Virus record (IMG/VR): IMGVR_UViG_3300029258_002326
Span: 62,001-126,000 of that record
From: a virus
DNA length: 64,000 bases
Strand: one strand, 5' to 3'
Each line of letters starts with the position of its first letter. Position 1 is the first letter of the stretch. Positions 1,334-62,866 of this stretch are shown here, piece after piece. The notes below the pieces were generated by a model that had not been told where the DNA came from, searched no databases, and was given only the letters and a program-made list of their open reading frames with translations. A program made the position numbers and the translations under genes.

Positions 1334-4195
1334 ATGACAGATTACACGTACCCAGGGGTATATGTGCAGGAGCAGTCGAGCGGTCCAGGACCGATCACTG
1401 GCGTCTCCACATCGAACTTAGGATTGCTCGGTTGGACTAACAAGGGTCCAATCGACGAGCCTACACTGTGCACCAGCTTCTCTGATTTCAAGACGAAGTT
1501 CGGGACATTTACCGAAGACGGCCTAACGCCAACAATGGCGTATGCGTTCTTCCAAAACGGTGGGCAGCGTGCGTACGTCGTGCGTGCGGCTCCGTCCGAT
1601 GCTGACGAGGCATACTACGACTACGAGTACACGATTCCCTCCGGGAGCGAAGAGGATCTTGGAAACACAGTCGAGGCGAGTGGCATTTACGAGCTTCAAC
1701 TTGCACATCCCCCGGTTACGCCGGGTTCGGTGACGATTACCTTCGAGGGTACTCTCACCAATATCTTTACTGACCCAGGTTCGGACGGAGTGCTTGTCGC
1801 TTCTGGAACTGGCGCTGGCGGATCGGGATCTATCGATTACACCACTGGCGAAGTCAACATTACGCTGACCAACCCTGCTCAGTTCACAGGTAGCTCCTAT
1901 CACATTGAGGCCGTGTACACTTATCGCGTGTTCCGCTTCCAGATGAAATGGCCTGGGGCTGCGGGGAATTATTACCGCGTAAGGATCACTCCTGGGTCTG
2001 ATGACTACCAGGTGTCTGGACAGGCTGAGTGGACTCGGTTCAACGTGTTTGTTGACGAGGATATTGATGCCGGGGCAACTGGCATTTCCTCATGGGTGGT
2101 GGATGAGCAGTTTACCGACTTGGTATTCGACGATCCATCCGATCCGAACTACGTAGCCACGATTTTGAATGCTGATTACAATGGCTCGGATTTCTTCGAG
2201 GTCATTGGATACGGCAACGAAATGAACCCGACTGAGCTGGCTGGTGTTGCCACGACAGCAGAGGATTTCTCTGCGACTATGGTACACAGTGACGACTCTT
2301 CGGTTGTCACTCCTGACCACTACAACACGAAGTGGAAGGGTTGGACTTACGACCTAGCGAACGGAGCATATCCTGCGACGTTCACCGCCAGCTTCACATT
2401 TGAAGAGGGTGGGCCTCTCATGGCCAGAAGCGTTGCAGCGGCAGCTACTGCTACTGTAGTGGGTCCAGATGTCTTCGATACGACATTGCTACCCATCACC
2501 GCTGGGACGGTTCGCATTAGCGCCAAGCTGACAGGTGACGGATTCGTAGACATCGTGGACGACGGAGCCGGTAACCTCACAGAGGCAAAGACATCCACAG
2601 CCGTGGGTACAATCGATTACACAACCGGTGCCATTGCTGATACGGGTGCTGTAGCTAACCAACTCAACGTTGGCGGTGTTGGTCTTGCTGACACATTCGC
2701 AGTTGGCTCTGACATCCGCTGGTGCAGTGGGACTCAGATCGGAACCGGAGCAGCTGGTCCTGCGGCTGCGGCGGCTATCGTATCTCCTGGGACGGCTTCT
2801 GCTCCTGCGGCAATCACACCTGGCAGCGTTCGCATCTCTGCTACTCTGACTGGCGACGGAACGGTATCCATCGTTGATGACGGAGCGGGAAGTCTCTCTG
2901 AGTCGCTGACGAGCACTGTGGTTGGATCAATCGACTACACAACCGGAATCATCTCCGACACTGGCGCTACAGCGAATCAGCTGGACGTAGGCGGTGTTGG
3001 TCTTGCTGACACGTTCGTAGCGGGTTCTGCGATTTACTTGGAATGCCAGTACGCAGCCGTGGTCGACGTTTCTGATGATGGAGACGGATACCTCTCGCTG
3101 GCTACCACGCAGGCGACTGGTTATCCTCAGAAGTTCGTTCTTGATTCCAACGGGACCAACGAGATCGATTACACGACTGGCAACTTTACGTTGACCTGGT
3201 CGGTGAGTGGGAATCCTGCTCTCAGCATTTCCTCGGCGGTCACTCAGGTAGCCACGTACTATACATACCCAAGCACAAGCATTGAAGGGGAGATGGCGCT
3301 GGGAAGCAACGGATCTGCGATGACGTCTTCGGACATCGTTGGAGCGTCCTTGGCTTCTGACCAGAAGGGCCTCTGGGCGTTTGGCAAGGTTGATGAGTTG
3401 ATGCAGTTAGTTGCATCCGACTTCCAGACCGATGTCACTGTTGCCGACGCGCTAATCACCTATGCAGAATTGACACAGGACAAGTTCGTTATCCTGACAG
3501 TTCCTGCTGGACTGACTCCGCAAGAAGCTCTCACTTGGAAGAAATTCCAGTTGAACAAGTACACCTCCTACGCTGCTTTATACTACCCGCACATCAAGAT
3601 CATCGATCCTGTGACGGATGTAGCGACAGACGTTCCTTGTGGTGGTCACGTAGCAGGCGTCTATGCGCGTACTGATACAGTCCGCAACGTAGGCAAGGCT
3701 CCTGCGGGCACCGACGACGGTCGTCTTAACTGGGCAATCGGCCTAGAGCAGGATCTAACTCCTGAGCAAGTCGGAACGGTATATCCGAACCGAATCAACT
3801 GCTTGGTTCAATGGCCGCACACTGGTCGATGCGTATGGGGTGCTCGCACTCTAGACATCGCAGGCGGAGAATGGCCGTACATCCAGGGTCGTCGTTTGTT
3901 CATGTTCCTGAAGAAGTCCGTGTTCAACGCGACTCATGGTCATGTGTTCAAAAACAACGGACCTCAGCTGTGGTCTGCCATCAGAACTCAGGTTTCCAGC
4001 TTCATGACAGGTTTGTTCCAGGCCGGTTATTTCGCGGGAACCACTCCGGACGAGTCGTTCTTCGTAGTATGCGACCGAACGAACAATCCTCAGAACACCG
4101 TGGATCAGGGCATTGTATTCTGTGACGTTGGTGCAGCTACCAACAAACCAGCAGAATATTTGGTATTTAGATTTTCCCAAAGAAGCCTAGCATAA
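1334..4195 (+). CDS. Tail sheath protein (T4 gp18-like), long form with inserted beta domains
   Basis: The contractile sheath subunit that polymerises around the tail tube and contracts on infection. The N-terminus has the classic sheath signature (YPGVYVQEQSSG, GVSTSNLGLLGWTNKGP, then FFQNGGQRAYVVRA). The C-terminus has the conserved end domain (TPDESFFVVCDRTNNPQ, PAEYLVFRFSQ). At 953 aa it is about 300 aa longer than T4 gp18 (659 aa). The extra length is beta-rich insertions at residues about 125-195 and 385-640 that repeat a module ending in IDYTTG. Two of these (around 390-465 and 495-570) are clear tandem duplicates sharing VRISA.LTGDG, VDDGAG and NQL.VGGVGLADTF. Such insertions probably face outward and decorate the tail surface. 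The start at 1334 is preceded by a weak GGAG site. Confidence 0.95.
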   Translation: MTDYTYPGVYVQEQSSGPGPITGVSTSNLGLLGWTNKGPIDEPTLCTSFSDFKTKFGTFTEDGLTPTMAYAFFQNGGQRAYVVRAAPSDADEAYYDYEYTIPSGSEEDLGNTVEASGIYELQLAHPPVTPGSVTITFEGTLTNIFTDPGSDGVLVASGTGAGGSGSIDYTTGEVNITLTNPAQFTGSSYHIEAVYTYRVFRFQMKWPGAAGNYYRVRITPGSDDYQVSGQAEWTRFNVFVDEDIDAGATGISSWVVDEQFTDLVFDDPSDPNYVATILNADYNGSDFFEVIGYGNEMNPTELAGVATTAEDFSATMVHSDDSSVVTPDHYNTKWKGWTYDLANGAYPATFTASFTFEEGGPLMARSVAAAATATVVGPDVFDTTLLPITAGTVRISAKLTGDGFVDIVDDGAGNLTEAKTSTAVGTIDYTTGAIADTGAVANQLNVGGVGLADTFAVGSDIRWCSGTQIGTGAAGPAAAAAIVSPGTASAPAAITPGSVRISATLTGDGTVSIVDDGAGSLSESLTSTVVGSIDYTTGIISDTGATANQLDVGGVGLADTFVAGSAIYLECQYAAVVDVSDDGDGYLSLATTQATGYPQKFVLDSNGTNEIDYTTGNFTLTWSVSGNPALSISSAVTQVATYYTYPSTSIEGEMALGSNGSAMTSSDIVGASLASDQKGLWAFGKVDELMQLVASDFQTDVTVADALITYAELTQDKFVILTVPAGLTPQEALTWKKFQLNKYTSYAALYYPHIKIIDPVTDVATDVPCGGHVAGVYARTDTVRNVGKAPAGTDDGRLNWAIGLEQDLTPEQVGTVYPNRINCLVQWPHTGRCVWGARTLDIAGGEWPYIQGRRLFMFLKKSVFNATHGHVFKNNGPQLWSAIRTQVSSFMTGLFQAGYFAGTTPDESFFVVCDRTNNPQNTVDQGIVFCDVGAATNKPAEYLVFRFSQRSLA

Positions 4196-4219
4196 CCGAG
4201 GATTTTGACTGTGAATTGT

Positions 4220-4248
4220 TTGACACAGCATTCTGTTTCCAATAGAAG
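4220..4248 (+). promoter_or_regulatory. Putative sigma-70 promoter for the homing endonuclease gene
   Basis: A perfect -35 TTGACA (4220-4225), 17-nt spacer and -10-like TAGAAG (4243-4248) lie in the gap between the sheath stop and the endonuclease ATG. The endonuclease would thus have its own early-type promoter inside a late structural cluster. The -10 match is modest. Confidence 0.5.
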
Positions 4249-4285
4249 CGCAGCACATGTTGCTGTGAAAGAAATGGAGACTAAT

Positions 4286-5143
4286 ATGGTGTTGTCAAGC
4301 GAGGAGCAGTTGGAAGTTGTTAGGCTGTACGAGGGTGACGATATGACGACGAAGGGCATTGCGAGCAGATTTGGTGTCTCTGATACCACTGTCCGCAATG
4401 TTCTCCGTAGTCATGGGATCACTCCTCACAGGGGGAGTAAGGCGATTTTGCCAGAGGCAGAGGATCGTATGATTTCTCTGTATGAATCTGGCCTCAATGT
4501 CCATGATGTCGCCAAGGGGTGCGGTGTTGTTCCGTCCACGGTTCTGAAGGTTCTGCGTCGCAGAGGGATCGAGCGTCGAGCGAATGTTAAGCGCAAGGTT
4601 CTTTCCGATGAGCAACGTTTGGAGCTTGCTCGTAAATACGCGGACGGATCTACATTTAGCGACTTAGAGAGTGAGTACAAGGTGTCTTGCTCGGTGGTCA
4701 AGAGTTGCTTGGATGAATTCAATGTTGAGCACCGAACCAGTGGCAGGGCCGGGTCGATTGAGTACATGGACACCCTTGGTCAAACGTGGATGTTCAAATC
4801 GACCTGGGAGCATCTTTACGCGCAGTGGCTGGACAAAGGGGGCTTCAGGTGGTCGTATGAGCCGCGCAGTTTCGATCTGAGCGAGCGACGGTGCTACACA
4901 CCAGATTTCTCTGTGGTTGTCGATGGGTCTGTTGAATACCACGAGGTAAAGGGTTGGCTTAATGAAAAGGCAGAGGATCGCATGCGTGAGTTTGTGTCCA
5001 TGTATCCGAGCGAGACGCTTGTTCTCGTTGGGCCTTCTGACATGGCGAGACTAGGATTGGTAGAAGAATGGTATCAGCGGCATTCGATGGCGGATGTCGT
5101 CGATGCTTTTAAGGCGTCCCTGGTAGCGAAGGAGGAGAGATGA
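4286..5143 (+). CDS. Free-standing homing-type endonuclease: three HTH units plus PD-(D/E)XK nuclease
   Basis: A 285-aa DNA-binding nuclease. Three successive helix-turn-helix units fill residues about 8-140; each reads as 'L/A-x-x-Y...G...dva..~gVs.~tv...L...gI'. The C-terminal nuclease core has TPDF (D207) and YHEVKGW (E220, K222), the D...E-x-K active site of the PD-(D/E)XK fold, as in TnsA/Vsr-like enzymes. HTH plus this nuclease is typical of phage homing endonucleases. ATG 4286 is chosen over 4274 and a TTG at 4205 because GGAG sits 6 nt upstream and the putative promoter would put the transcript start near 4255. It splits the sheath from the next virion gene and overlaps that gene by ATGA. 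Alternative: a regulator or restriction-like nuclease. Confidence 0.8.
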   Translation: MVLSSEEQLEVVRLYEGDDMTTKGIASRFGVSDTTVRNVLRSHGITPHRGSKAILPEAEDRMISLYESGLNVHDVAKGCGVVPSTVLKVLRRRGIERRANVKRKVLSDEQRLELARKYADGSTFSDLESEYKVSCSVVKSCLDEFNVEHRTSGRAGSIEYMDTLGQTWMFKSTWEHLYAQWLDKGGFRWSYEPRSFDLSERRCYTPDFSVVVDGSVEYHEVKGWLNEKAEDRMREFVSMYPSETLVLVGPSDMARLGLVEEWYQRHSMADVVDAFKASLVAKEER

Positions 5144-6461: not shown

Positions 6462-8039
6462 ATGGCCAGGAGTCGCACAGAAGATCTGATGTTAACGCAT
6501 CGTTTCTGGCTAATGGACGTCGTCCCTAGCGCTACGTTTCCCTTCCTTGTTTTAGGTACGCCCTTCATGGGTTTCCAGTCGATCACCTCTCCTGAGTACA
6601 CGGCAGAAATGGTCGAGATCAAAGAGTTGAACTCGATGTACAAGAAGTACGGGTACGGGGGAGGCTCGGTCTCCCCTATTACTCTTACTCGTGGCGTGCG
6701 CGGATACGACGAAACAATGTGGAACTGGATGCAGACGGCTATTCGTGGAAATGATATGACGAATCGCCATCTCGTCCTTCTCCATTTCACAAACATGGCC
6801 ATGCCGGTAGGTGGAGATAGCGATCTCCCGTTTGACGCTTGGGAGACCAGGCCGTTTTTGCCGGGCAAGGCATGGCTTCTGTGGGATTGCTTAGATGAGG
6901 ACACTGAGATCCTGACAAGCAAAGGATGGAGGGGAAGCGATGGTGTTAAGGAGGGCGATCTTGTTTACTCGATGAATGTCGAGACGGAGAAGCTGGAAAC
7001 AGTCCCAGTTGATGGGTATGTGAAGCGTAGAAGGGCGCCTGATGATGACATGGTTTCTGTAGCAGGACGACGTTTTAACTTCAGGGTTACGGGTAAACAC
7101 GGGTTCTACCTCAAGCCTTCCAATGGTGGCGCCATGGTTCGGCATCAGGCTGCGGATCTTTTGTCGTTAAAAGGAGAGCACTTGATGCCCGTTGCTTCTC
7201 GCATGTCTAGCGAACACAAGGGTGTCGATTTGACCGACGATGAGCTTCGTTTTGTCGCGTGGTTTGTAACGGATGGTCACCTCAAGGAAGGCCAGAGGCT
7301 GATCATATCCCAAGCCAAAGAATACCGTAACGACATTAGGGATCTTCTGAGTAGGATAGGCTTGCACTTCACGGAGCGGGTTATTGAGCGATCCGTGGAT
7401 GATGGTTCGTATGCGAATGGCAAGCCTCTTCACGAGTTTGGCGTCCCCAAGGGAACGGGGGGCAAGGGCCTGTCCGGGTGGAGTAGGTACAGCGAGTATC
7501 TTGACAAGGATATTTCTGAATTGCTTCACGACATGACCCGTGATCAGTTTATGGTTTTCTGGAAAGAGCTTGTAAAAGGAAATGGCTTCTTCCTGAATGA
7601 AGAAGATGACGATTGGATAAACAATTCTCAGTTGTGGTGTCCCTCCAAGGAGCAGGCTGACGCCCTTGTGTGGATGGCGACGGTGCGCGGAGTAGCGCTT
7701 AGCTGCTATGAGCGGGAGACAGAAAATGGGCATGCTATGTATTGCCTTACGGCACGGGACAAAGAGTGGATAATTGTTCGCCCTGGACGCATGGCGGAAA
7801 GAGAAAAGCCCCTTATCAAAGAGAGGGTTTTTGTAGATGAATTCGTATGGTGCGTATCGAATAGGAATCGCAGTATCGTAACAAGAAGAGGCGGAAAGGT
7901 CGCTATCATGGGTAATTGCCTCCCGACTCGGTACAAGGCGGCGTCAGACTTCGACGCAACCAGTTCGAGCGTCAGTATCTCGGAGCTAGAGATACAACCC
8001 CAAGCGGTCACAGAAATGACCCTGCTGGATCCGACGTAG
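6462..8039 (+). CDS. Tail tube protein paralogue 2, interrupted by an intein
   Basis: A 525-aa precursor. Residues 1-142 (N-extein) and 486-525 (C-extein) together make a 182-aa tail tube protein. The central LTRGVRGYDETMWNWMQTA matches the paralogue's SLMRGVAKQDTAFLDWVRA. The C-extein CLPTRYKAASDFDATSSSVS aligns with the intein-free CVPIRGKAAGDFDSTSSEVS, which fixes the insertion just before the conserved Cys. Without splicing the tube domain would be split near its C-terminal strand, so splicing is presumably needed for tail assembly. It starts 18 nt after the stop of paralogue 1 with an AGAGGTGG site upstream. Confidence 0.88.
   Translation: MARSRTEDLMLTHRFWLMDVVPSATFPFLVLGTPFMGFQSITSPEYTAEMVEIKELNSMYKKYGYGGGSVSPITLTRGVRGYDETMWNWMQTAIRGNDMTNRHLVLLHFTNMAMPVGGDSDLPFDAWETRPFLPGKAWLLWDCLDEDTEILTSKGWRGSDGVKEGDLVYSMNVETEKLETVPVDGYVKRRRAPDDDMVSVAGRRFNFRVTGKHGFYLKPSNGGAMVRHQAADLLSLKGEHLMPVASRMSSEHKGVDLTDDELRFVAWFVTDGHLKEGQRLIISQAKEYRNDIRDLLSRIGLHFTERVIERSVDDGSYANGKPLHEFGVPKGTGGKGLSGWSRYSEYLDKDISELLHDMTRDQFMVFWKELVKGNGFFLNEEDDDWINNSQLWCPSKEQADALVWMATVRGVALSCYERETENGHAMYCLTARDKEWIIVRPGRMAEREKPLIKERVFVDEFVWCVSNRNRSIVTRRGGKVAIMGNCLPTRYKAASDFDATSSSVSISELEIQPQAVTEMTLLDPT
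6888..7916 (+). other. Intein with degenerate LAGLIDADG homing endonuclease domain
   Basis: A 343-aa in-frame insertion. It opens with C1-LDEDTEILTSKGW (splicing block A), has block B TGKH (T68, H71), block F around EFVWCVSNRNRSIVTRRGGK, and ends VAIMGN before the extein Cys+1. The usual penultimate His of block G is Gly here (MGN instead of the common VHN). The middle carries a LAGLIDADG-like helix (RFVAWFVTDGHL, residues 121-132) followed by a DOD-type pattern (IISQAKEYRNDIRDLLSRIG). A second, weaker motif (FWKELVKGNGFF, residues 224-235) has Asn where an acidic residue is expected. The splicing part looks functional; the nuclease may be impaired. Confidence 0.88.
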
Positions 8040-14977: not shown

Positions 14978-15754
14978 ATGAGCGAGTTCCAGTGGACGGG
15001 GTGGAATAGGCAGAAAGAGGATAGGCGTGATCATCTTCTTCTAGCGAGTTTTGGGATCTCGGAAACGACAGCTGTGGCATGGTCTCTGAAGGGATTCGTC
15101 AAGCATGTCCACGACCAGGGGCGAACGAATTCCTGTGTTGCTCATGCGCTGGCCAGTGCAGTAGGCATCATTGAGAGCAAGGCCGGGCTTAGGGACGATC
15201 CTATATCCAGGCGTTTTTTGTATTATTATGCTAGGCGGGTGAACAGCAATGTGATCTCTGACTCTGGCGCTTATATGAGGTCGGCAGCCTCTGCTTTGTT
15301 TAGGTTCGGGGCTCCTCCTGAGAGGTCGTTTAAATGGGATGATGGGCGAATGAATGAGATACCGCCATGGATTTCGCATATGCGTGCACACTCGCGTATG
15401 CACGGTGAGTATGCGTTCATTAAATCCAAGGACGATCGCCTCGTGCGGGAGATAATGTCATCGATTTGCGCGGGCTATCCCGTCGCGTTTGGCACAATGC
15501 TGCATGATAACTTCACGGATCGCGCAGACGGGGGGCTTATCCGCAGGCCAAAGACGGTGACGGGTGGCGGCCATGCGATGCTGATAGTGGGATACAAGAC
15601 TGCGTCCGACGGGGGAGTAGAATTTGATGTGCTGAACAGCTGGGGGAGAGAGTTTGGGGACGAGGGGTTTTGCAGGATGTCCGAGGATTACATGACCTGG
15701 GAGGAGACGAGCGATTTTGTTTCCATAAGAGGTTGGTCGAGGTTGAGAAGATGA
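14978..15754 (+). CDS. Papain-like (C1A) cysteine protease
   Basis: A 258-aa protein with the full papain-fold active site. Q47 and C53 lie in HDQGRTNSCVAHALASA, which matches the classic QGxCGSCWAFA site. H199 lies in GGGHAMLIVGYK and N220 in VLNSWGREFGDEGFC. There is no pro-domain or signal peptide, so it may act in the infected cell or as a virion component. Such proteases are uncommon in phages; possible substrates (host proteins or virion precursors) cannot be told from sequence. GAGAGG precedes the ATG, and the stop overlaps the next start by ATGA. Confidence 0.88.
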   Translation: MSEFQWTGWNRQKEDRRDHLLLASFGISETTAVAWSLKGFVKHVHDQGRTNSCVAHALASAVGIIESKAGLRDDPISRRFLYYYARRVNSNVISDSGAYMRSAASALFRFGAPPERSFKWDDGRMNEIPPWISHMRAHSRMHGEYAFIKSKDDRLVREIMSSICAGYPVAFGTMLHDNFTDRADGGLIRRPKTVTGGGHAMLIVGYKTASDGGVEFDVLNSWGREFGDEGFCRMSEDYMTWEETSDFVSIRGWSRLRR

Positions 15755-17099: not shown

Positions 17100-17297
17100 A
17101 TGAGGTTGAATGTTGAAATCAAGGGCGTCGTATACGAGGAGTTTACTCGGTACTGTGCCTCGGAGGGAAGATCCCTTAGCGACGTAGTTAGATCGCTGGT
17201 TATCGGTTGGAATGCAGACAAGCGGTCAGAGGAAATGCTAAAAATGCAGTCGTTACAAATGGCTGAGTTGAAAAATTCGGAGGAAAGATCGAGATGA
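17100..17297 (+). CDS. Small ribbon-helix-helix-like protein
   Basis: A 65-aa protein reading MRLNVEIKGVVYEEFTRYCA, then SEGRSLSDVVRSLVIGWNAD. A beta strand followed by two helices with the RHH spacing suggests a dimeric DNA-binding protein of the Arc/MetJ type, with a charged C-terminal tail. It sits immediately before the tail chaperone and overlaps it by ATGA (17294-17297). It could regulate this operon or the palindromes, but this is inference. Confidence 0.65.
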   Translation: MRLNVEIKGVVYEEFTRYCASEGRSLSDVVRSLVIGWNADKRSEEMLKMQSLQMAELKNSEERSR

Positions 17298-18163
17298 CAG
17301 ATTCCAAGATTGAGGTTGTTGGTAGCAAGGTTGACGAGGCGCCAGTTGACGCTGAAAACACCGTCGTTGATGTTGGAAAGACCAAGGGACACGCTCTGGA
17401 TGCTGGCCCAGGAACGATCACTGTAGATCTTCCGTGCGGGTGTATCCACGGAGAAGACCTGCACAGGACGATCACGTTCAAAGAGATGACCGGCAAAGAG
17501 GAGGATCTTCTCGGTGGGACAGGGGATCTGGTCGAGCGATTGAGTCAGGTCATTATCAACTGTACGCTTCGGGTGGGCTCCATTGATGACCGTAAAGTCA
17601 TCTCCAACATGGTGGCTCAGATGTCTTCCTCGGATCGCCTGATCTCGCTTATCGCGATCCGCAGGCTTTCTCTAGGTGATCACTACGACGTTTCGATCAC
17701 TTGCCCGAAGGAGTCATGCGGAACCAAGAGTCGATTCACTCTGGATATTTCAGGGCTAGAGATTTCTCCTATGCCTAATCCAATGGTTCGGACGATGAGC
17801 CAGGAGATGTGTACAGGTGCTGTGTACACGTGGCATGTTATGGTTGCGAAGGACGAGTCCTGGTTACAGGGAATGAAGCGTTCTCTCCGAAACGAGAGCC
17901 CGTTCACAATGGCTATGTTGTCCCGTATCGACAAGGTTGATGACGTCGTTATCGACAGAAACACTCCTCGCGGGACCAAGCAGGCTATTGAGTTTTTACA
18001 GGATCGTCCGTCTCGTGAGCGGAATCAGTTCCGTGAGGTGTATCCCCAGATGGAGGGGAGTGTCGATACAGATGTAGAATTCACGTGCCCGGCTTGCCAG
18101 GCTCAGTGGGAATCTGAGTTAAACGTTGGCAATCCGTCTTTTTTCTTCCCGTCGGTCAAGTAG
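17294..18163 (+). CDS. T4 gp26-like baseplate/tail assembly chaperone, short (0-frame) form
   Basis: A 289-aa protein. After an acidic N-terminus come a Cys motif (LPCGCIHGEDL), a helical core (KEMTGKEEDLLGG, SSDRLISLIAIRRL), a first CP-x-x-C (ITCPKESCGTKSRF) and a second zinc-type pair (FTCPACQAQWESELN) ending NPSFFFPSVK. This layout and the position just before the tape measure fit the gp26-like baseplate/tail-chaperone family (T4_baseplate). A slippery heptamer lies five codons before its final residue, and the -1 frame carries a second conserved-looking segment, so a longer fusion is probably also made. Confidence 0.8.
   Translation: MTDSKIEVVGSKVDEAPVDAENTVVDVGKTKGHALDAGPGTITVDLPCGCIHGEDLHRTITFKEMTGKEEDLLGGTGDLVERLSQVIINCTLRVGSIDDRKVISNMVAQMSSSDRLISLIAIRRLSLGDHYDVSITCPKESCGTKSRFTLDISGLEISPMPNPMVRTMSQEMCTGAVYTWHVMVAKDESWLQGMKRSLRNESPFTMAMLSRIDKVDDVVIDRNTPRGTKQAIEFLQDRPSRERNQFREVYPQMEGSVDTDVEFTCPACQAQWESELNVGNPSFFFPSVK
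18139..18145 (+). promoter_or_regulatory. Canonical -1 ribosomal frameshift site T_TTT_TTC
   Basis: In the chaperone frame the codons read TC[T TTT TTC], an exact X_XXY_YYZ heptamer. The 0-frame stops 16 nt later at 18161-18163, while the -1 frame is open from 18118 to 18339. A small stem-loop (TCTCG AAAG CGAGA) lies at 18168-18181. Tail chaperone genes before the tape measure commonly use such a shift (G/GT in lambda). Confidence 0.75.
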
Positions 18164-18339
18164 ACGTTCTCGAAAGCGAGATCTTCTTCCTGATCGAGAT
18201 TCAAGGTTATGGGTACTCTGACGCAATGTCGATACCCTGGAGCAGAAGGAAGAGATTCGTTGAAAAAATGCAAGAGAACATTCGCAGACAGCAAGCCTCG
18301 ACTGGATCGGCGGGCGGAAGACCGAGACGCAGGCGATAA
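18145..18339 (+). CDS. -1 frame extension of the tail chaperone (fusion C-terminus)
   Basis: After the shift the reading continues LPVGQVDVLESEIFFLIEIQ, GYGYSDAMSIPWSRRKRFVE and a basic tail ending RPRRRR, stopping at 18337-18339. The fusion would be about 348 aa. The pattern ESEIFFLIE...GYSDAMSIPWSRRKRFVEKM matches the 'EEIF.L.Y...~EA..lP...R.~f...~' motif typical of the C-terminal part of phage tail chaperones. There is no in-frame ATG until the middle of the motif, so independent translation is unlikely. The stop abuts palindrome copy 4. Alternative: a recent frameshift mutation or sequencing error in a single ORF. Confidence 0.75.
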   Translation, partial: LPVGQVDVLESEIFFLIEIQGYGYSDAMSIPWSRRKRFVEKMQENIRRQQASTGSAGGRPRRRR

Positions 18340-18365: not shown

Positions 18366-21300
18366 ATGGCTGATTTCCTCGGAGCATCATTTGGTTTTGG
18401 CGCAATGGACGTCGGGTTTAAGGCCGCCATGTCCTCGGCTATCAAGTCCGTGGGCGAGATTAGCAAGGGCATAAATGGCCAGCTGAAAGACGGCAAGAAG
18501 CTCAGCAGGATGTGGCAGGGCGTCAAGTCGAGCGTTGATTCATTCAATATCGCCTCTATTGCCTCGAACATGAACGAGCTAAACGGGAACACAGGCAACC
18601 TGTCGAATAGTCTTGAATCGATGGGAGTGTCGATGGCCCAGGCTGCGAAGCCGATCATCGCCGGTATGGATTTGACGTCCAAAGAGGCTCGCAAGATGAC
18701 TGGCCGGGTCACGGGCATGGCGATAGGTCTCAACGTCGGAGCCGAACAAGTGGCCGAGACGCTGAGGGCGATCCACAGTGCCGGTGGGCCTGCGAAGGCA
18801 GCGATTGATGCGATGGCCATGTCTGAGCGGGATTGGGTCAAGGTCACTACCACTACGGGCGTGACCATGCAGGACTTCTCTGCTGTGCTTGGCGATATGA
18901 CTGCCAGTTGGGGCGCGTCTCCGAAGCAAGCGGCTGCCATGATCGACAATATAATGGCCATTGGGAAGCAAGCTGGAATCGGGGAACACGGTATTAAGGG
19001 CATGAAGGGTCAGCTTGATGCGTTGGACGACATCTTCGAGGGGATGCCTCCTGGCATTGCTCGGACAGCGGATGAGGTCCAGAGTCTCATGGAGTCGACC
19101 TATAAATTATCTGGTGTCTTCAGGACAATGGGTGACACGCAGGAAGATGCGACTGCGCGGGGGCAAGACACAGCCAAGATGTTCGCAGAGCAGGCGACGC
19201 TGATTGAAACTCTCTATGCAGTTGGCGGGGATCAAAACCTGGATGAGTCTCCTCTTTTTAGATTCCTTACCCAGCTAGGGATAGGGACGGAGGAGGCGAA
19301 AAGTATCATCATTGACGGGTCCAAAGATGTTGTAGGTGGAGTGTCGAGGATCAATGACGTCTTCGCCAAAATGGGAGGGGACTCTTCTCCACAGGTTGGG
19401 GCTGCCCTTGGTGAGCTATCCAAAGCCATGGGGGCAAGCGCTAGCGGTCTAGGATTTTTGGCTTCGAGCACAACGGTGGGCAGAGACAGACTGAAGGAGA
19501 TGGCCGAAATGACGGTCAGGGGAGAAGGTGCTCTTAGGAGATACGGCAAGTCTGCTCATAGTTCAGGTAGGACATTGCAGGAGAGCATGGACCTTGCGCG
19601 AGAAGGGTTCGAGACACAGTTCCGTGCGATAGGAAGAGCGGATGTGCGCGGCTTCGCCAAGAAGCAGATGAAAGCGTACAAGAGCATGGGCAAGGAACTT
19701 AAACAGCTGGGCGGGGATCCTGTCTGGGGTGGGTTTATCAAGAAGATGTCCATCATGCATCAGATGGGCGCCAAGGGCGTGTTCGAGAGTTTTGCTGATG
19801 ATCTTGATGTGTCCTCTCAGAGAGCAAGAGAGCTAAGTGTCGGTTTCGAGCTTGCGATGAACACGGCCAAACAGCTGTCGTCTGAGTTTGCTCCTGTTAT
19901 GGAGATAATGGGCATGCTCGGGCCTGCGGGCGGCCTTGCCATAGCTGGCGGTATCGCCTCTTATTTCGTGCTTAGTGAGTCTGATCGCAAGGAGATATTC
20001 GGATCGTTCTATCCGGTTATTGATAAAATCGGCAATGCCATAAAGGATCTGTGGAACAAGATTCCATGGGACAAGATAAAGATTGGCTTTGAAGCGGTGA
20101 TGGACAAGATCTCTCTCTATTTTGCGAGGCTATTCGAGCGCATAATGGGCAAGGATTTTGCTGAGAAATTTGGTTTGACGAAGTCCATAAAAGCGATGGA
20201 GAGGGAGCAGGCGGTTAAAACCCAGGCGGATCGCATTAGGAAGGAAGACGCGGCTAAGGCTGCCAGGGGTACTGTGTTTGGTGGTCAGTCGGTTCCGTTG
20301 GCAGACTGGGAGAGGAAGTCTGATTTTGAGATAGGCAAAGAAGCTGAGAAGACGATTCGTATCGGGGAGATGAGGGAGGATGTCAAGAAATACAGTGCGA
20401 GGACGTCGTCTCGTGATTTCGCAAGGAGTGCGGCTGAAGCTGCGGCCAAGGCCAAGGGTGCCAGCGCAGACGAACAGAGAGCGCAGGGGCAGCTGGAAGT
20501 TGACAGGATGATGCTGCTTGAAGAAGCTCAGTCTATCCTCAAGGATACGAGCGGTATGAATATAATTCCCTGGGTAAGGGAGTTCAGGGCGGGTCGGGCA
20601 GTTACCCAGGCTGAGAACATCGGCGGCATGGGGGATCTGTCAAGAAGTACGCAGAAGGAGACGGAGAAGCGCCTTGCCAGCGAAGGGGAGGCAAGGCGGG
20701 CTCACTTTAGAAGAAAAAAAGATCCTGCTGAGGCGGTTCCGGGTATTGCGGACGAGCTGGCGGACTCGGTGGACACTGAGGCGTTACAAGAGAAAGCTAA
20801 GGTTGGCGGGACGGCTGTTCTAGGCTCGTGGGGTGCAGGTGTAAAAGAGGGAACGCCTGATGCTCTCACGGAAATATATGGGGCAATGGGGATACTCGCC
20901 AAGCCATTTGGTGGGTCCTTGCCAGAGGATGGCCCGCTCAAGGACGGCGAGCGGTCATTTAACGGTGGTCGTTCTGTCATGGAATCATTTGCCAACGGCA
21001 TGTATGAGGCCAAGGACTTTGTTGCCGACACGGTTGCGATGGTCCTTGATGATGCTGTTATAGGGACGCTCGATACATACGCAACGAAGATGGAAGAGCT
21101 TGCTGCTGGCAAGTCGCTTCTCAAGGGCGTCGCCAGGAAAATGGTCCAGGACATGGGCGGAGACGTCAAAATGGGCTCGGTAGAAATCGACGGTGTGAAT
21201 CTGGACGCAGAGCAAACGTTTGAAGCGGCGATGAGTCTTCCTGGGCTCGCGAGTGTGGTTGCGGCCATTGCGTCGGACGGTCACAAGACGCGAGTTGTTT

Positions 21301-21395
21301 TGAAGAAAATACAAGAGGACACAAGCGGCATATTGGCGATGGGCAATGCCTCTCCTGGTGCAGGGTCATCGGCAGGGCAGCCGACTTTGGAATAA
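18366..21395 (+). CDS. Tail tape measure protein
   Basis: A 1009-aa, mostly helical, Ala/Gly/Lys-rich protein directly after the tail chaperone, the invariant tape measure position. It opens with GFGAMDVGFKAAMSSAIKSV. Repeated helical segments follow (AEQVAETLRAIHSAGGPAKA, ASPKQAAAMIDNIMAIGKQA). A hydrophobic segment at residues about 512-537 (GMLGPAGGLAIAGGIASYFV) could insert in the inner membrane at ejection. By the usual rule of about 0.15 nm per residue, the tail would be roughly 150 nm long. AGGGGG precedes the ATG, and palindrome copy 4 lies just upstream. Confidence 0.88.
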   Translation: MADFLGASFGFGAMDVGFKAAMSSAIKSVGEISKGINGQLKDGKKLSRMWQGVKSSVDSFNIASIASNMNELNGNTGNLSNSLESMGVSMAQAAKPIIAGMDLTSKEARKMTGRVTGMAIGLNVGAEQVAETLRAIHSAGGPAKAAIDAMAMSERDWVKVTTTTGVTMQDFSAVLGDMTASWGASPKQAAAMIDNIMAIGKQAGIGEHGIKGMKGQLDALDDIFEGMPPGIARTADEVQSLMESTYKLSGVFRTMGDTQEDATARGQDTAKMFAEQATLIETLYAVGGDQNLDESPLFRFLTQLGIGTEEAKSIIIDGSKDVVGGVSRINDVFAKMGGDSSPQVGAALGELSKAMGASASGLGFLASSTTVGRDRLKEMAEMTVRGEGALRRYGKSAHSSGRTLQESMDLAREGFETQFRAIGRADVRGFAKKQMKAYKSMGKELKQLGGDPVWGGFIKKMSIMHQMGAKGVFESFADDLDVSSQRARELSVGFELAMNTAKQLSSEFAPVMEIMGMLGPAGGLAIAGGIASYFVLSESDRKEIFGSFYPVIDKIGNAIKDLWNKIPWDKIKIGFEAVMDKISLYFARLFERIMGKDFAEKFGLTKSIKAMEREQAVKTQADRIRKEDAAKAARGTVFGGQSVPLADWERKSDFEIGKEAEKTIRIGEMREDVKKYSARTSSRDFARSAAEAAAKAKGASADEQRAQGQLEVDRMMLLEEAQSILKDTSGMNIIPWVREFRAGRAVTQAENIGGMGDLSRSTQKETEKRLASEGEARRAHFRRKKDPAEAVPGIADELADSVDTEALQEKAKVGGTAVLGSWGAGVKEGTPDALTEIYGAMGILAKPFGGSLPEDGPLKDGERSFNGGRSVMESFANGMYEAKDFVADTVAMVLDDAVIGTLDTYATKMEELAAGKSLLKGVARKMVQDMGGDVKMGSVEIDGVNLDAEQTFEAAMSLPGLASVVAAIASDGHKTRVVLKKIQEDTSGILAMGNASPGAGSSAGQPTLE

Positions 21396-61684: not shown

Positions 61685-62866
61685 TTGAATCGTAGCCATA
61701 AAATAGCACTCGATTCGACCCCTCGTCAGGAGAGGTATTTTCGGCGAGCGTGCGGAGTGTCGCGGTTCACATACAACTGGGCGTTGGCTGAGTGGAAGAG
61801 GCAGTATGATCTGGGCGGGGATCCAAGTGGGTTTGCATTGAGGAAGCAGTTTAATGCCATTCGCCATGTCGATTTTTCATGGACTGGGGAAGTGTTACGT
61901 GATGCGACGGCACGGCCGTTCATGAATGTTGAAAAAGCCTATCAGAGTTTTTTTAAAAAAAGAGGGAAGTATCCTCGGTTCAAGAAGAAAGGTGTCCGTG
62001 ATAGCTTCTATGTGTCGAGCGATAGACTTGCAGTAGATGGCCAGAGAATCCGGATTCCGCGTATTGGGTGGATAAGGATGAGGGAAGAGCTTCGTTTCAC
62101 GGGAAAGATAACTTCAGCGGTGGTGTCAAGAACAGCTCACAAGTGGTTTGTGTCAATAGCGGTGGATATTCCTAAAACTCTGACAACGAGCGAGAACCAA
62201 GCCGTGGTTGGGGTGGACCTGGGAATCAAGTCGCTGGCGACATTATCCACTGGGGAGAAGTTCGAGGCACCGAAGCCGTTAAAGAAGTCATTGGCGAAGT
62301 TGCAGAGGTTGAGTCGGCAGTTGTCCCGCAAGCAGAAGGGGTCGAATCGTCGGTGGAAGGCCAAGCAAAAGTTGGCGCGGTTTCATTATCGAGTGTCGTG
62401 TGTCCGCAACGACGCGCTGCACAAGCTGACAACGGGGTTAGTACAGCGATTTGGTACAGTGGTCATTGAAGACCTGAACTTGAAGGGCATGGTCCGCAAC
62501 CGGTATCTGTCGCGGGCTATTTCCGACGTGGGGTTTGGGGAGTTTCGACGGCAGATTGAGTACAAGGTTGCGGATCACGGTGGTCGTTTAGTAGTGGCTG
62601 ATCGCTGGTATCCGTCGTCGAAGACGTGTTCGGATTGTGGGTTCAAACTGGATATTTTGTCATTAGGCACCCGAAAATGGGATTGTCCGGAGTGCGGATC
62701 TTCACACGACCGAGACATCAATGCCGCTGTAAATTTGAAAAAACTAGGGCAGGCTTTGCCCGAAGTGACGCCCGTGGAGAAGAAGGCCCTGGCGAGCAGT
62801 GATCTGTTCGTGAAACCAGCTTCGGTGAATCGGGAACTAAGCTGTGTCAGGCGCGAAAGTGTTTGA
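61685..62866 (+). CDS. tnpB: TnpB, RNA-guided nuclease of the IS200/IS605 family
   Basis: A 393-aa full-length TnpB. The N-terminal OrfB helix-turn-helix part (QERYFRRACGVSRFTYNWAL) precedes a split RuvC nuclease: D178 in VGVDLGIKSLATLS, E262 in VVIEDLNLKGM, D344 in HDRDINAAVNL. A zinc finger lies between (CSDCG, CPECG: C315, C318, C334, C337). All catalytic residues are present, so it looks active. TnpB uses an omega RNA from the 3' end of its own gene to cut target DNA. No TnpA is nearby. TTG start, with GAGG/AAGGG upstream, right after the preceding gene. Confidence 0.92.
   Translation: MNRSHKIALDSTPRQERYFRRACGVSRFTYNWALAEWKRQYDLGGDPSGFALRKQFNAIRHVDFSWTGEVLRDATARPFMNVEKAYQSFFKKRGKYPRFKKKGVRDSFYVSSDRLAVDGQRIRIPRIGWIRMREELRFTGKITSAVVSRTAHKWFVSIAVDIPKTLTTSENQAVVGVDLGIKSLATLSTGEKFEAPKPLKKSLAKLQRLSRQLSRKQKGSNRRWKAKQKLARFHYRVSCVRNDALHKLTTGLVQRFGTVVIEDLNLKGMVRNRYLSRAISDVGFGEFRRQIEYKVADHGGRLVVADRWYPSSKTCSDCGFKLDILSLGTRKWDCPECGSSHDRDINAAVNLKKLGQALPEVTPVEKKALASSDLFVKPASVNRELSCVRRESV

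Follow-up and report, generated by a model that had tools for sequence, protein, structure and literature searches.

The tail assembly chaperones of phage lambda, gpG and gpGT, are a short protein and its frameshifted longer version, encoded just ahead of the tape measure gene, and this G-T frameshifting is said to be conserved in long-tailed phages "except T4" (Atkins et al. 2016, PMC5009743). T4 has two paralogous genes, 26 and 51, and no slip site: both products belong to PF12322, and gp51 is longer, its C-terminal part forming a family of its own (phrog_634). In cyanophages, gp51 was reported to be about 20% of full length, with no reason given (Sullivan et al. 2010, PMC3037559). The tail chaperones of T4-like phages were identified by Vladimirov, Gautam & Davidson (2022, Virology 566:9-15), according to the papers that cite this work (PMC10885494, PMC12846349). 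The first of these cites it for a short/long pair of chaperone genes in some T4-like phages, and the second (2025) for poly-T slip signals in the short chaperone genes, which it presents as known. Since T4-like chaperones with poly-T -1 sites are already in the literature, the gene analysed here adds a deep-branching member to a kind of system that was known before.

A PF12322 gene in a distant T4-like phage

The DNA that we analysed (the window, 64,000 nucleotides) is part of a 157,265-base virus record. Judging from the Gp23-type major capsid protein (E 7e-70), sheath, gp19-type tube protein and gp25 encoded in this record, its source is a distant T4-like contractile-tailed phage, from environmental DNA. 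The gp19-type tail tube gene (6462-8039) carries an apparent intein (CLDEDTEILTSKGW ... MGNCLPTRYK), only the tube part being matched by Pfam. The sheath gene (1334-4195) is followed by an ORF (4205-5143) that combines helix-turn-helix domains with an endonuclease-like C-terminal part and precedes the genes of the tube region, including the intein-bearing one. The tail gene region also contains the ORF of a papain-family (C1) cysteine protease (14978-15754), and a TnpB-like protein (OrfB_IS605, with a Cas12f1-like TNB domain) is encoded at 61685-62866. In a head-gene region (G000:C1:28684-35223; L030 4684-11223), a 2179-aa ORF has a LAGLIDADG domain along with three matches to intein splicing.

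The chaperone locus has the following features:

17279..17283, + strand: Shine-Dalgarno-like GGAGG of the chaperone gene, read from the sequence
17294..18163, + strand: putative TAC-N (short form), gp26-like tail assembly chaperone of 289 aa; PF12322 / phrog_150; model pLDDT 82.7, best structural matches being tail assembly chaperones
18139..18145, + strand: candidate slippery heptamer T_TTT_TTC, in frame, from the sequence; kept in nine distinct relatives
18161..18163, + strand: zero-frame stop TAG, read from the sequence
18145..18339, + strand: -1 frame extension, 64 aa and TAA, predicted gp51-C-terminal-like domain of the long form (TAC-NC); pN/pS 0.33; profile match to gp51 C-termini E 1.9e-5
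18366..21395, + strand: probable tape measure protein, 1009 aa, presumed client, from position and length only

The gene starts at the ATG at 17294, and its zero-frame product (17294-18163), used as the query P0001, has two cysteine pairs (C137/C142 and C265/C268). At the slip site the codons read ..TCT TTT TTC TTC.., which places T_TTT_TTC in frame with the TAG 15 nt further on. A ribosome that slipped back by one base would next read CTT (18145-18147) and would meet no stop before the TAA at 18337-18339. The 64-residue extension is LPVGQVDVLESEIFFLIEIQGYGYSDAMSIPWSRRKRFVEKMQENIRRQQASTGSAGGRPRRRR; a mutated version of the slip heptamer is TTCTTCTTC. The coordinates of the gene, the heptamer, the -1 frame and its 64 aa in the first-pass annotation all proved exact when the sequence was read again. 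The 1009-aa ORF starts 26 nt 3' of the extension; it gave no family match, and its identity as the tape measure is taken from position and length.

P0001 matches PF12322 (T4_baseplate) with 40.9 bits (cut-off 24.5, E 2.4e-10) and is matched by phrog_150 (E 1.5e-12). It is the only PF12322 gene in the 157-kb record, which is possibly incomplete. A tblastn search of 50,697 phage records with P0001 returned no match, and P0001 is a deep new branch of the PF12322 tail assembly chaperones.

The AlphaFold2 model of P0001 has a mean pLDDT of 82.7, and a search of viral predicted models with it retrieved PF12322-type proteins. Against the PDB, Foldseek gave nothing significant with the model, and the sequence search gave no match. 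After VIA-align, the top two of 998 PDB chains were 3klu (B. subtilis YqbN, which we take to be an XkdN-like chaperone; Z 5.0) and 2ob9 (the HK97 tail assembly chaperone; Z 4.9), both with Z < 8 and with alignments covering residues 38-130 of P0001. Matches at Z near 5 are modest, and weak by themselves; we regard them as suggestive.

Conservation of the heptamer and of the extension

Relatives were gathered by a search for Gp23-type capsids, which gave 23 loci; 13 of their longer records were searched with P0001, giving seven matches, and the alignment of these seven was used as a scan to reach seventeen loci in total (the alignment of all PF12322 members is too diverse as a scanning profile). 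The first-pass annotation had proposed conservation of the heptamer in related phages as a check on its reading, and all nine distinct relatives (28-50% identical) have both an in-frame T_TTT_TTC and an open -1 extension. The distance from T_TTT_TTC to the stop is 19-28 nt in these nine. In the close relatives the stop lies 22 nt from the first base of the heptamer, and their extensions share the motif FFLP..G..LE.EVFFL.EL....YDS.M..P.SRR.RF.E. The TTTTTTCTTCCC site of the window clade is also found in a 595-kb phage genome (LR756511). The first-pass annotation had further named uninterrupted ORFs lacking the heptamer as a finding that would speak against a frameshift: a fused chaperone ORF of this sort was sought in the window's clade, and none was found. 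Among the 19,046 codons of 51 plus-strand ORFs of the window, the in-frame heptamer occurs once, at 18139; the arrangement is beyond chance because it is conserved in the relatives. Three more distant loci (L073, L074 and L077, 3700-4010; 25-26% identical) have no heptamer; in these, the domain is encoded by an ORF of its own, overlapping or adjacent, that starts with ATG or GTG.

We compared the extension with the C-terminal domain of gp51. Neither the window extension as a single sequence nor a first profile test gave a significant match to gp51 C-termini. When the twelve extensions of the clade were compared with fifteen gp51-type ends, profile against profile, 52 columns aligned in register (E 1.9e-5), and the clade profile scored 31.1 against a maximum of 15.9 in 200 column shuffles (0/200 as high). 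By this comparison, made through the clade profile only, the clade's extension is homologous to the C-terminal domain of T4 gp51.

Slip sites in other T4-like phages

A PF12322 search was run on twelve phage records. The gene is present in a single copy in P-SSM2, Cr30, phiW-14, Melnitz and HTVC008M, with T_TTT_TTC or T_TTT_TTT beside the stop and a -1 ORF, and KVP40, ACP17 and YB07 have the same arrangement. The -1 ORFs of P-SSM2, Cr30, phiW-14 and phiEa2809 are matched by phrog_634, the gp51 C-terminus (1e-29 to 1.5e-5). In Melnitz the -1 frame is closed just 5' of the T run and opens only at the run, and the shift must therefore occur on it. Where the T4-like phages of this analysis have only one PF12322 gene, a slip site of this kind in it is the usual arrangement. 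The remark in the first-pass annotation that a frameshift would be less expected for a T4 gp26-like gene was thus mistaken, the more so as the literature treats it as known. In a distant lineage, Campylobacter phage CP220 (FN667788; L025, L028) resembles T4 with its gp26/gp51 pair: it has two PF12322 genes, one short and one long, and no slip site.

The cyanophage type was analysed in 80 IMG/VR loci close to P-SSM2 (L078-L157), 75 of them unique. T_TTT_TTC lies 10 nt ahead of the stop in 75/75 unique loci; being 74-100% identical to P-SSM2, these are not independent. They have a GAGG-type Shine-Dalgarno-like element about 10-14 nt 5' of the heptamer, and the Glu codon at this element is GAG in 72 of the 75, as opposed to 24% GAG among the other Glu codons of these genes. 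The element is a likely stimulator of frameshifting in cyanophage-type genes. The equivalent search in the window clade found no such element upstream and no unusual structure downstream: in the window, upstream anti-Shine-Dalgarno pairing is below the shuffle mean, and the 70 nt downstream fold with a z of -1.1. The window gene resembles the T4-like chaperones in family, in a poly-T -1 site shortly before the short form ends and in a gp51-type extension, but differs from them in that its extension is far diverged, its heptamer is 15 nt from the stop and it is without a clear Shine-Dalgarno-like stimulator.

Some other phages have the extension in the +1 frame. They are the Streptomyces phages BRock (KX925554, L026), pSt2308 (PV588686, L168) and GiJojo (PP725410, L169), and the Bacillus, Listeria and Streptococcus phages SP-15 (KT624200, L158), LIS04 (OQ999172, L159) and GXN1 (PQ819873, L024). 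Candidate +1 sites are TTT_C in the BRock group and NCC_CGA in SP-15, LIS04 and GXN1, and the frame of these extensions suggests +1 frameshifting. The records of BRock, LuckySocke, pSt2308, GiJojo, SP-15 and LIS04 show separate ORFs in this region or no annotation at all; the LuckySocke locus, which had been read from a wrong anchor, was excluded from the +1 set. A scan for further +1 cases with SP-15 recovered only SP-15 itself, and we found no published description of a +1 frameshift in PF12322 chaperones. It is an evenly balanced possibility that the family switched decoding several times, between a -1 shift (the window clade, cyanophages and others), a gene pair (T4, CP220), split ORFs (L073, L074, L077) and a +1 shift (BRock, pSt2308, GiJojo; SP-15, LIS04, GXN1), the short/long pair remaining constant.

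How the two frames are probably joined

Past the zero-frame stop, the -1 frame has a pN/pS of 0.33 and the other two frames have 1.16 and 1.75; substitutions at codon positions 1, 2 and 3 of the -1 frame number 307, 228 and 528. Only in the -1 frame does the extension evolve as a protein. In the window and in most relatives, no start codon falls ahead of the conserved domain once the slip site is passed: in the window, the first ATG, GTG or TTG of the -1 frame is 29 codons past the slip, within this domain. Given the constraint and the lack of an early start codon, the segment is protein, and frameshifting is the simplest way to read it. We consider it very probable that the window gene encodes a tail assembly chaperone (TAC) that yields a short and a long form by a -1 slip at T_TTT_TTC. 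A programmed -1 frameshift in a tail chaperone, as the first-pass annotation had proposed, is strongly supported by the conserved heptamer, the coding constraint, the missing start codon and the homology to the gp51 C-terminus.

The -1 ORF could instead be a small separate gene, with its own start or read by re-initiation past the TAG, as the annotation of cyanophage gp51 implies: the P-SSM2 record lists gp26 and gp51 as two CDS, its -1 ORF has an ATG just past the stop, 69 of the 75 cyanophage-type loci have an ATG shortly after the stop, and L073, L074 and L077 carry a truly separate ORF. Such a gene would not need the heptamer, yet the heptamer is invariant, and with no ATG, GTG or TTG ahead of the conserved domain in the window and most relatives we find this improbable. 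Even less probable is that the frames are joined by transcriptional slippage adding a base on the six-T homopolymer at the junction. Six T are short for slippage of RNA polymerase, at every locus the run keeps precisely to the X_XXY_YYZ phase of ribosomal slip sites, and the cyanophage-type loci have their GAGG-type element upstream, like known -1 sites. Homopolymers are error-prone, but an error of sequencing or assembly, or the decay of a former fusion, has a negligible chance and is already contradicted by a second, separately assembled contig (IMGVR_UViG_3300018080_000128) that is identical over 10.9 kb around the gene, by the same arrangement in the nine relatives and by purifying selection on the -1 frame.

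Proposed mechanism and implications

Beyond the observed sequence features, conservation, -1-frame coding constraint and family membership, we infer for the cell the slippage itself, its rate, the client and the step that recruits the tube. With a -1 slip on the heptamer, the majority of ribosomes would stop at the TAG at 18161 and release the short form, and a minority would slip back one base, their Phe-tRNAs on T_TTT_TTC, and continue to the TAA at 18337. The resulting long form (~347 aa) would consist of the shared N-terminal part and the gp51-type C-terminal domain. If lambda gpG/gpGT is a guide, the tape measure protein, from the gene immediately 3', would be coated by many copies of the short form and few of the long one. 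The latter would bring in tail tube subunits through its C-terminal domain, and neither form would remain in the virion.

The window gene would share with lambda a short and a frameshifted long chaperone encoded just ahead of the tape measure (PMC5009743), although in the window the tape measure is probable only. The slip heptamer of lambda differs from T_TTT_TTC, and the likeness is drawn from the arrangement. T4 gp26 and gp51 are likewise short and long PF12322 forms, the latter with the gp51 C-terminal domain, but they are made from two genes, in place of one gene and a slip site.

The frameshifted arrangement extends far outside the cultured T4-like phages and is probably older than the T4 gene pair. 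This gives the "T4 exception" (PMC5009743) a simple reading: gp26 is the short and gp51 the long chaperone. In many phages (e.g., P-SSM2), gp51 is entered as a gene of its own; such ORFs should be annotated as products of ribosomal slippage.
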